The position numbers were made by a program, and so were the translations under genes. Positions 3,313 through 10,017 of a stretch of DNA of 33,631 nucleotides are shown here, piece after piece; the first letter of the stretch is position 1, and the number at the start of each line of letters is the position of its first letter. Source of the DNA: an uncultured Clostridia bacterium (GTDB taxonomy: Bacteria > Bacillota > Clostridia > Lachnospirales > Lachnospiraceae); NCBI GenBank assembly GCA_947304065.1, contig CAMZAI010000003.1, positions 1 to 33,631 on the forward strand, read 5' to 3'. The notes below the pieces were generated by a model. That model saw only the letters and a list, made by a program, of their open reading frames with translations. It was not told where the DNA came from and searched no databases.

Positions 3313-3753
3313 ATGAAGATTGACATAAAACAGATAACCGAGGGCGAGGAGAGCATCAACATCCGATACAAAGAGCCCAATCCCACGGTCGGGAGGATTA
3401 TCGGGATCCTGCGCGGCGAGGGCAACAAGATATGGGGCCGGACCGAGGAAGGCAGCGTATGCATCGGTTTGGACGACGTGCTCTATCTGGAGTCGGTGGA
3501 TGACAAAGTATTTGCCTATACCACGGACAAGGTGGTCAGGATCGACGGTACATTGAACTCATTCATGATAGAGAACGATGAGGACGTTTTCTTCAGGTGC
3601 AGCAAGTCCATCGTGATCAATGTGAACCGCGTGACGTCTCTGAAGAGCCTGGCCTCGAACAGGATCGACGCCACGATGGAGGGCGGCGAGCACATCATTA
3701 TTTCCAGGCGGTATGCGTCGGAATTCAGAAGATTTTTAAAGGGGGACAGGTAA
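3313..3753 (+). CDS. LytTR domain DNA-binding regulator
   Basis: DDVLYLESVDDKVFAYT...FFRCSKSIVINVNRV is the LytTR fold. No receiver domain. Paired with the DUF3021-like gene. Confidence 0.88.
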   Translation: MKIDIKQITEGEESINIRYKEPNPTVGRIIGILRGEGNKIWGRTEEGSVCIGLDDVLYLESVDDKVFAYTTDKVVRIDGTLNSFMIENDEDVFFRCSKSIVINVNRVTSLKSLASNRIDATMEGGEHIIISRRYASEFRRFLKGDR

Positions 3754-4215
3754 ATGAAGAATGAGAAAAAACTATCCCTTTGGGAAAGATATCTTACGAA
3801 AGAGATAAGCATAGAGTTCAAGGCTTGCCTGTATTTCTTTGCGATCCTGTTCTTTTACTGCGTCTGCAGGATGATAAAGGGTTCGTTCGAGGCTGAGATA
3901 CTGCATATGGCGGAGATGATCTTTACATGCTATATAATCTGCTATCTTCAGGTATATCTTTTCGGGAATTTTGATGAAACCGAGACCGTCGGACTCAGGG
4001 AGTGCATCGGCGTGACGGTATGCACCTTACTGTATTGCGCGGTTTCGTATTTTGGCGGATGGTTTGGAAAGCAGCTGTCTGTTTCTCTGATACTTGCCGC
4101 GTACATCCTGCTCACTTATTTCTGCGTATTTTTAATATACAGGACGAAGCGCAGGATCGACGACAGGAAGCTCAACGAAGAGCTGCGTATTTTCCAGACG
4201 GAGCATAAAAAGTGA
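3754..4215 (+). CDS. DUF3021-like integral membrane protein
   Basis: About four hydrophobic segments, immediately downstream of the LytTR gene; known LytTR/DUF3021 pairing. Confidence 0.75.
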   Translation: MKNEKKLSLWERYLTKEISIEFKACLYFFAILFFYCVCRMIKGSFEAEILHMAEMIFTCYIICYLQVYLFGNFDETETVGLRECIGVTVCTLLYCAVSYFGGWFGKQLSVSLILAAYILLTYFCVFLIYRTKRRIDDRKLNEELRIFQTEHKK

Positions 4216-4241
4216 ATGATAAGGCCGAATAAGTGCATCTT

Positions 4242-4272
4242 ACGGGGACAGCTATTGTCCCCGTTTTGTTTT
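4242..4272 (+). terminator. Rho-independent terminator after LytTR/DUF3021
   Basis: ACGGGGACA-gctat-TGTCCCCGT followed by TTTGTTTTT. Confidence 0.85.
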
Positions 4273-4339
4273 TATGATAGTAGTAAGGTGCAGAGCAGAT
4301 AATGCGTGGGAATGAAAGTTACGACAGGAGGAAAAAAAG

Positions 4340-5892: not shown

Positions 5893-5906
5893 GCCGGAGA
5901 CGGCAT

Positions 5907-6058
5907 GGGGACGGTTCTTCTGTCTGCGCCGGGATAACAGAAACGCGGGCGGCAACGGGATATTTCACCGCAAAACAAGAGCTTATCGTTTTGCGGTAAA
6001 ACACCCTGCGGCGCCCGCGTATTTCTTTATCTTCTGAGCAGACAAAAGAACCGTCCCC
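5907..6058. repeat. ~152-bp imperfect palindrome (REP/MITE-like candidate)
   Basis: Outer arms ggggacggttcttctgtctgc (5907-5926) and gcagacaaaagaaccgtcccc (6038-6058); nested CGCGGGCG/CGCCCGCG; inner CCGCAAAAC...GTTTTGCGG around loop aagagcttatc. Confidence 0.75.
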
Positions 6059-6088
6059 GTGTCTTCGTGTCTCACGTGTGTTAATCTT

Positions 6089-6171: not shown

Positions 6172-8658
6172 ATGGGCAGGAGACTTGACAGAAGACTGGC
6201 GTTTGTAAAGCGTCTGTTTTCTGCGGACTTTTATTCGCACCGGGCTTATATAAGATATTACGACAGGCTCAAAGTGCGTCCTGACACGGTGCTCCTCGAA
6301 TCGCAGCACGGAACGGTCCTCGGAGGAAATATCGCGGCGATACTGAAGACGCTGTGCGAGGAAGAAGAATTTGCCGGGCTGAAGATATATGTTACGGTAC
6401 GCAGGGAGACCGAGGAAAAAATAAAGGCGCAGTGGGCCGGCTTTAAGAACGCGGAAGGCAGGGTGCATACGGTCAGATTTGATTCGAGAGCTTATTTCCG
6501 CATACTCGCGAGCGCGGGAAGGCTGATCAACGACAATACCTTTATGCCGATGTTCATGAAGAAACCCGGGCAGATTTATCTCAATACCTGGCACGGAACT
6601 CCTTTAAAGACACTGGGCAAGGGCATAAAGGGCGAGCGTTTCGCGATCGGCAACGCGCAGAGGAATTTCCTTACGGCGGATCTGATGCTTTTCCCGAACG
6701 AACATACACGCGAGGTTCTGCTTCGCGATTACATGATAGAGAATTTCGGTACCGGCAGGATGGCGATGACCGGTTACCCGCGCAATGAAGTATTCTTCTC
6801 GGACGAGGTCAGAAGTGCGATGCGCGAACGCTTCGCGATGGAAGGAAAGCGGGTTTATGCGTATCTTCCGACTTGGAGAGGCATCGTGGGCAAGGTAGAC
6901 AAGGAGGCCCAGAAGCAGGAACTCGCCAAGTCTTTTAAAGAACTTGACAGCAGGCTCCCGGACGATGTGCTCGTCTATATCAAGCTTCATCCGATGCTGC
7001 GCGGAAGCATGCCGACCGAAGGCTTTAAGCATATCAGGACCTTCCCCGAGGATGTGTTCTCCTATGATTTCCTTCAGGCAACGGACGGCCTCATTACCGA
7101 TTATTCGAGCATAATGTTTGACTATGCGGTCACTCACAGGCCGATCGTTCTGTATACCTACGACGAGGAAGAGTATGTAAGGGACAGGGGACTCACATTT
7201 TCCCTTGACGAACTGCCCTTCCCGAGAGTAAAGGATATTGCATCTCTGGCCGCGGAGCTGGTTAAGCCGACCGCTTATGACGACAGCTCATTTATCTCGC
7301 GCTTCTGTCCTTATGACAGAGTGGGTGTCACAAAGGAACTCATGCGCGATTTCATCGGAGGAAAGCTCGACAAATATCCGAAGATGCCTTCAAACGGCAA
7401 AAAGAACATTGCTGTCTACGGCGGCGACTTCATCAGAAACGGTATCGCCACGGCGCTCGGAAGCCTGATGCAGAGCGTTGATCCGGAGAAGTTCAATTAT
7501 CTTGTGCTCTACAAGCTGAGCCCGAAAACAAACAACACGCCGGGCTATCACGAGCCCGCGCTTGACGATATACCCGAGGGTATTGCGACTCTCGGGATCA
7601 CGAATCCGCACTGCGGCACCTGGTGGGATCTGATCTGTTCGAAGGGCTGGAAGCGCCTGCAGAGGATATTCCCGGGCCTGCCCTTTAAGGCCTCGAAGAA
7701 AGCCTACGAGAGAATCGCGGTGCGTGAGGCGAACAAGACCTTCGGTATGGCGAGGATCGATGCAGCGATACAGTTTAACGGGTATTTCCCCGATATTATC
7801 GAGATGTTCAAGCTCATGGACTGCGGGCGCGCGATATTTGTCCACAATGACATGAACGGTGAGAACAGGAAGAGCTTCGCGGTGCCCAAGAAGCTGTTGG
7901 CCGACGCATAGTGCGCATATGACGACGTCGTGGTCGTGACCGACGAGCTGAAGCCCCGCATGGAGCATTTCATTGAGACCGCGGGCTTCGAGAGGCACGA
8001 TTTTACCGTTGTCCCGAACATCATCGATTACAGGTCTATACGCGAAAAGGCGGAGAAGGAGCTGCGCTTCGACGAGACCACGGAGACGGACATTACGATA
8101 GAACAACTCAAAGAGATCACTGACGGCAGATATAAGGTAGTGATCAATATAGGCCGCTTCTCGTACGAAAAGGGCCAGATGAGGCTGATCGACGCGTTTG
8201 AACGCGCGGCGGCGGACGATGATAAGGCAAGATTGATCATCCTCGGTTCGTACGGCCCCGAGTACCCGAAGATCTGCGAACGCGCGGCGAGATCGAAGAT
8301 CGCGGACCGGATAACTGTGATCAAGTTCATGTCGAATCCGTTCCCGCTCCTTAAGCGATGCAATTATTTTGCGCTTTCCTCGATCTACGAAGGTTTCGGG
8401 CTGGTGCTCTGCGAGGCGGATATCCTTGGGATCCCCTGCTTCTCGACGCGTATCGTCGGGCCAACTCTCTTTATGGAGAAGTACGGAGGAATGCTGGTCG
8501 AGGATTCCACGGAAGGCATTGAGGCAGGCATCAGGGCATGTCTCGAGGGCAAAGTTAAAAAGACACTCACGGTTGATTATGAGCAGTATAACCATGAGTC
8601 GGTGCAGAATTTTGAAAAAATGGCAGAGCGGCTGACCGCGCTGCACAGGAATAAATAG
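6172..8658 (+). pseudogene. Bifunctional CDP-glycerol glycerophosphotransferase-like / GT4-like glycosyltransferase, interrupted by in-frame TAG at 7909-7911
   Basis: 6172..7911 and 7930..8658 share a frame and are separated only by TAG. N-part: NTWHGTPLKTLGKGI, YLPTWRG, KLHPMLRG, TDYSSIMFDYA. C-part begins at SKNIAVYGGDFIRNGIA-like Rossmann start and resumes CAYDDVVVVTDELK ... NIGRFSYEKGQMRLIDAF ... SSIYEGFGLVLCEADILGIP. Pseudogene status is an inference. Confidence 0.75.
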
Positions 8659-8706: not shown

Positions 8707-10017
8707 ATGTCCGCAAAGAAGCTGGCAGAATTCATCAAAAAGGCGGTTTCGCCTTATCATACCGTGGAGGAGTCGCGTAAGATCCTTGAAGATAAGGGTT
8801 TCGCGAGGCTCGAGGCGGGAAAAGAGTGGAAGCTCAAAAAAGGCGGGAAATACTATGTGATCCCGTTTAAGACCGCGATATTCGCATTTACGCTGCCGAA
8901 GGCGAAGACCTCGCGCGGCGTGCACATCGCCGCGGCGCATACGGATTTCCCCTGCCTGCATTTAAAGCCGAAGGCCGAGCAGGTGAGCGCGGGATATATG
9001 CGCCTGAACGTCGAAGTTTACGGCGGTCCGATACTTAACACCTGGCTCGACAGACCTCTCTCCCTCGCGGGACGCGTGCTCTTAAAGAGCAAAGATGTCT
9101 ATGCGCCCAAGGAAGTGCTTGTGGATTTTGCCAGACCTGTGGTAACGATCCCGAACCTTGCGATCCATTACAACCGTGAGGTAAATAAGGGCGTGGAGCT
9201 CACAAAGCAGAACGACATGCTCCCGCTGCTCGGAGTGCTTACCGATGAGCTTAACAAGGACGGATATTTTGTGGACTTCCTCGCAAAGGAGATCGGCGCG
9301 AAGCCCGCGGACATCCTTGATTTTGACCTGATCGTCTACAACTGCGAAGCTCCCGCGTTTGTCGGAATGAACGGCGAGCTGCTCTCGTGCCCGAGACTCG
9401 ACAACATCACTTCCTGCTTCGCTCTTGTAGAGGGCATCGGCAATGAAAGCAAAAAGCCGGCCGCAAAGGGCAAAACTACAACTGTAGAAGAAGGTGTGGA
9501 TCTGATCGCGCTCTTTGATAATGAGGAGATCGGGTCGGGCACAAAGCAGGGTGCGGATTCGGCTCTGCTGAACGGCATCTTAAAGCGCATTTACTCAGCG
9601 CTCGGACAGACTGAGATCGAGCTTGAGAACGATATACAGAAGGGCTTCCTGCTCTCCGTGGATGTCGCGCATGCGCTGCATCCGGCCAAGACAGAGAAGT
9701 TCGATCAGAACAACTGCATGAAGATGGGCGAGGGCGTGACCTTCAAGCTCAGCGCGAACCAGCGTTATTCCTATGACGCGGTGGCTGTGGCTTCGCTCCA
9801 GCAGCTCTGCGACAAAAACAAGATAAGATATAAGAAGTTTGTCAATCATTCGGATATGCCGGGCGGCGGAACATTGGGACCGATCATTTCGTCATGGCTG
9901 CCGATGTACACCGTGGACATCGGAGTACCGATACTTGCGATGCATTCCGCAAGGGAGCTGATGGGAGCGTCCGACCAGGACGAGCTCGAAAAGCTGATCA
10001 GAGCATTTATGGACTAG
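8707..10017 (+). CDS. M18 family aminopeptidase
   Basis: AAHTDFPCLHLKP, NRLDNITS-like PRLDNITSC, LFDNEEIGSGTKQGADS, SVDVAHALHP, PGGGTLGPI motifs. Confidence 0.95.
   Translation: MSAKKLAEFIKKAVSPYHTVEESRKILEDKGFARLEAGKEWKLKKGGKYYVIPFKTAIFAFTLPKAKTSRGVHIAAAHTDFPCLHLKPKAEQVSAGYMRLNVEVYGGPILNTWLDRPLSLAGRVLLKSKDVYAPKEVLVDFARPVVTIPNLAIHYNREVNKGVELTKQNDMLPLLGVLTDELNKDGYFVDFLAKEIGAKPADILDFDLIVYNCEAPAFVGMNGELLSCPRLDNITSCFALVEGIGNESKKPAAKGKTTTVEEGVDLIALFDNEEIGSGTKQGADSALLNGILKRIYSALGQTEIELENDIQKGFLLSVDVAHALHPAKTEKFDQNNCMKMGEGVTFKLSANQRYSYDAVAVASLQQLCDKNKIRYKKFVNHSDMPGGGTLGPIISSWLPMYTVDIGVPILAMHSARELMGASDQDELEKLIRAFMD

Follow-up and report, generated by a model that had tools for sequence, protein, structure and literature searches.

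A TagF-like/GT-B polymer polymerase gene with a single in-frame amber codon in a rumen Lachnospiraceae metagenome-assembled genome

Introduction

Polymerases in which a TagF-like domain is joined to a GT-B glycosyltransferase domain have been described from Gram-negative capsule producers (PMC5974469). In Cps3D, glycerol-phosphate transfer by the TagF-like domain alternates with galactose transfer by the GT-B domain; R982 and K987 are reported to be crucial for the sugar transferase, and E1059 and E1067 constitute its EX7E motif (PMC5974469; PMC11666461). A TPR domain is stated for the majority of TagF-like/GT-B capsule polymerases, but is not strictly defining (PMC11666461; PMC5974469). The authors of the earlier study raised, without deciding it, a role of homologues in making the type II wall teichoic acids of Gram-positive bacteria (PMC5974469).

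Here, a gene of this type is described from a window of 33,631 nucleotides, the whole stretch of DNA that was analysed, which belongs to a rumen bacterium represented by a metagenome-assembled genome (MAG) of 2.46 Mb (244 contigs, 81% complete). The gene is ancestrally one fusion, and in this copy a conserved tyrosine codon is replaced by TAG. The comparison with relatives and with Cps3D and the explanations that can be offered for the TAG are considered below.

Organization of the Interrupted Gene

The ancestral single gene, encoding a TagF-like/GT-B polymer polymerase, occupies 6172..8658 on the forward strand, as do all features given below. Its reading frame runs from MGRR...KKLLADA to a TAG at 7909..7911, resumes with CAYDDVVVVTDELKPRMEHF, and ends in HRNK before the terminal TAG at 8656..8658; codon 580 is the sole interruption. 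The preliminary description had placed two open reading frames in one frame here, and the single TAG at codon 580 indeed separates an ORF of 579 amino acids (6172..7911), whose ATG is preceded by GGAG, from one of 242 amino acids with a GTG start (7930..8658). The open continuation past the TAG (7912..8658) comprises 248 codons.

The 5′ fragment contains a TagF-like CDP-glycerol phosphotransferase domain (PF04464, Glyphos_transf; residues 32–383, E = 4e-59) and, by alignment to Cps3D, most of a GT-B N-terminal lobe (residues ~410–580). No TPR domain is present, and only about 30 residues lie N-terminal of the TagF-like domain. The 3′ remnant holds the last part of the N-lobe of the GT-B fold and all of the donor-binding C-lobe, and matches group 1 glycosyltransferases (PF00534/PF13692, E = 8e-23), with PF00534 at remnant residues 70–214. 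Because the TAG falls within the GT-B N-terminal lobe, the whole donor-binding lobe is cut off, together with the conserved elements of the retaining GT4 site, namely an arginine, a lysine, and the EX7E motif, all of which are present and all of which follow the stop. R662 and K667 (8155..8172) align with R982 and K987 in the donor-phosphate site of Cps3D, and E740 and E748 of the EX7E motif (8389..8415) align with E1059 and E1067.

An intact relative matches Cps3D (PDB 8qoy) with E = 6e-82 across residues 26–821, and the Cps3D residue aligned with codon 580 is tyrosine. In the relatives and in the read-through frame, a single polypeptide carries the TagF-like domain and, C-terminal to it, a GT-B domain; in this copy that polypeptide is interrupted. 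The initial assignment as a CDP-glycerol transferase/GT4 fusion, made from the letters, is upheld by PF04464 and PF00534, and can be refined: the gene is homologous to Cps3D-type TagF-like/GT-B capsule polymerases. Judged from its sequence, the two-part enzyme probably builds a teichoic-acid-like surface polymer. Assignment as a TarF equivalog was rejected; the NCBIfam TarF score is 99 bits, far under the curated cut-off of 550. An AlphaFold model computed for the intact relative from a three-row alignment reached a pLDDT of 44.5 and was left out of the evidence.

The gene for an M18 aminopeptidase (8707..10017) lies directly downstream of the polymerase gene, and an M18 homologue is also found 3′ of the polymerase gene in a related genome (G008), so that the gene order is conserved there. 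Upstream, a non-coding stretch at 5905..6062 has long inverted repeats at its bounds (GGGGACGGTTCTT...AAGAACCGTCCCC) and resembles a small mobile or repetitive element without coding capacity. In another related genome (G020), the translation upstream of the polymerase gene shows a similar KNRPRV remnant.

Conservation of Codon 580 Among Relatives

Close homologues are found in three of the 23 further genomes compared from the genus (G008, G020, and G021). A scan of GTDB genomes returned the same three and one more close homologue (JAILRC010000002.1), all four from rumen Lachnospiraceae MAGs, as well as three others at ~40% identity. Tyrosine stands opposite the TAG in all seven; three of the four close relatives encode it by TAC and the other by TAT. 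The protein is single and uninterrupted in G008 (830 amino acids), G021 (825), and JAILRC010000002.1 (825), and the homologue in G020 has tyrosine at the site on a contig that ends 21 codons beyond. Two of the distant homologues run full length (780 and 798 codons), and in the third (JAEENL010000064.1) the frame is open past the site; an in-frame TAA in this third homologue, at codon 641 and ~16 codons before the 3′ end of the contig, is probably an end-of-contig error.

The 248 codons past the stop share 83% identity with one relative and 73% with another in the frame of the upstream half, and a tblastn alignment crosses the stop with 86% identity over 838 amino acids; the shared frame is thus more than chance. 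Since tyrosine and a continuous frame are found at the site in all seven relatives, none of which is divided at this boundary, the gene is ancestrally one fusion, as had been proposed when tyrosine was first suggested as the residue replaced by amber, and the TAG belongs to this assembly alone.

Constraint on the protein is intact beyond the TAG. Between this genome (G000) and G008, pN/pS stands at 0.15 past the stop, compared with 0.16 and 0.10 ahead of it, and amino-acid changes private to G000 and to G008 number 8 and 17 before the stop and 8 and 8 after it (Fisher p = 0.33). Decay as a pseudogene was rejected because amino-acid changes after the stop are without significant excess. Decay being undetectable past the stop, the TAG must have arisen very recently, if it is real at all.

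Origin of the Stop Codon

The reading preferred here, held with a little more confidence than doubt, is that the TAG is a real and recent nonsense allele, carried by the sampled strain or strain mixture, in an ancestral bifunctional polymerase gene. By homology with Cps3D, the TagF-like domain of the ancestral enzyme would transfer glycerol phosphate with CDP-glycerol as donor, and a sugar would be added by the GT4 domain, giving a teichoic-acid-like poly(glycosyl-glycerol-phosphate). A very recent change of one codon would then have turned the conserved Tyr 580 into TAG, and in cells that have this allele termination there would give a protein of 579 residues in which the phosphotransferase domain is intact and the sugar-donor-binding lobe is gone. 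Without that lobe the alternating polymer should not form; this phenotype, like the activities, is predicted from the sequence.

The explanation that comes nearest to a real allele, and is slightly less likely, is that the TAG arose in the metagenome assembly, through a miscalled base or a strain collapse, and that the gene is intact in the living cell. A fresh nonsense mutation and an assembly error had both been offered as causes in the preliminary description, and this range of explanations is upheld. This is a serious, if somewhat less favored, candidate; the MAG is fragmented and incomplete, the contig titles of two relatives give a coverage of only 1–2, the constraint downstream of the TAG is intact, and low coverage and low read quality are documented sources of spurious internal stops (PMC11017572). 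Against it, the assembly is not generally error-ridden; the TAG at codon 580 is the only internal stop among ~92 homologous loci and ~36,000 aligned residues, some of them counted repeatedly, and no frameshift or split-frame pair was found among these loci. Other apparent stops precede the likely starts and sit at the 5′ ends of frames read from stop to stop, and general breakage of the assembly was rejected on this ground. The assembly is therefore not grossly error-prone, although it may contain a single isolated error.

Far less probable than either a real allele or an assembly error is that the TAG is read as an amino acid, by amber suppression, reassignment, or programmed readthrough, and that the full-length protein is made. 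The strong constraint past the stop would suit such decoding, as would the failure to find RF1 (prfA) in this genome when it is present in all 23 of the congeneric genomes compared; however, this absence coincides with an assembly gap. In G020 the order of genes is prmC, prfA, and an rRNA methyltransferase-like gene. In this genome, prmC breaks off at the end of contig C200 (match at 3419–4294 of 4296 bases), and the gene that flanks prfA on its other side has no close match in this genome. Since prmC is cut two bases before the contig end and the other flank is missing, RF1 is most likely hidden in the assembly gap, and the failure to find it has no bearing on the question; the gap after prmC mimics the loss of RF1 in a profile search. 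The gene for RF2 (prfB) is split over two contigs (C81:10943–11680 and C111:1–318). In the 433 kb of this genome that were sampled, TAG terminates 11 of 214 long ORFs, and the three TAG-ended genes open to comparison with a relative end within 0–2 residues of the same place. The TAG stops at 8656 and 10015, which had been cited against general amber reassignment, coincide with gene ends in a relative, and reassignment, as far as these sequences tell, is contradicted by the gene ends. Across the ~92 loci, TAG does not occur repeatedly inside genes, and no relative retains a stop at the position of codon 580. A TAG flagged in prfA of G013 is not an internal codon; it either closes the gene normally or stands, in frame, immediately ahead of the start. 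No tRNA with a CUA anticodon is among the tRNAs found, a set that is incomplete in this MAG, and low-level suppression might still occur, although nothing supports it. A variant in which the TAG is real, maintained, and partly suppressed, so that a truncated phosphotransferase and the full bifunctional polymerase are both made, is still harder to credit; if true, such dual products would vary the surface polymer.

Equally improbable is a pair of native genes sharing one frame, the second of which would start from the GTG at 7930..7932 or nearby, for although same-frame neighbours occur elsewhere in the genome, none of the early in-frame starts past the stop has a convincing Shine-Dalgarno sequence (the first, this GTG, follows AGTGCGCATATGACGACGTC and is, as first suspected, an unlikely start, whereas the ATG at 6172 has GGAG before it), and the boundary would cut a GT-B N-lobe that is continuous in Cps3D and in all relatives. 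The same-frame neighbours in question are two ABC-transporter genes (L083:3697–7201) parted by a TAG that sits right in front of the second gene's ATG, and they serve as a control that TAG-separated genes in one frame can be ordinary.

Comparison with Known Systems

The stop codon itself is of little weight, being either an ordinary recent nonsense allele, slightly the likelier reading, or a one-base error of the assembly, and not a new decoding system. The locus resembles the false pseudogenes and nonsense-interrupted genes reported from draft assemblies (PMC11017572), in which a gene that is otherwise under constraint likewise holds one internal stop, and differs from them only in the gene concerned. 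Furthermore, it illustrates how an assembly gap can pass for the loss of RF1.

The TagF, TarF, and TarL teichoic acid transferases (PDB 3l7i, 8va1; NF041712) have the glycerophosphotransferase domain PF04464 in common with the polymerase described here, whereas they are without a fused GT4 domain. The closest described system is Cps3D of Actinobacillus pleuropneumoniae (PDB 8qoy; PMC5974469; PMC11666461). Unlike Cps3D, the rumen Lachnospiraceae proteins are without an N-terminal TPR domain, their hosts are not Gram-negative pathogens, and the copy in this window has a premature TAG. The order of domains, TagF-like and then GT-B (GT4), is nevertheless common to both, and the positions of the arginine, the lysine, the EX7E motif, and Tyr 580 are conserved in the gene under study or its relatives. 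The gain for annotation is modest: rumen Lachnospiraceae carry TagF/GT-B polymerases like Cps3D.
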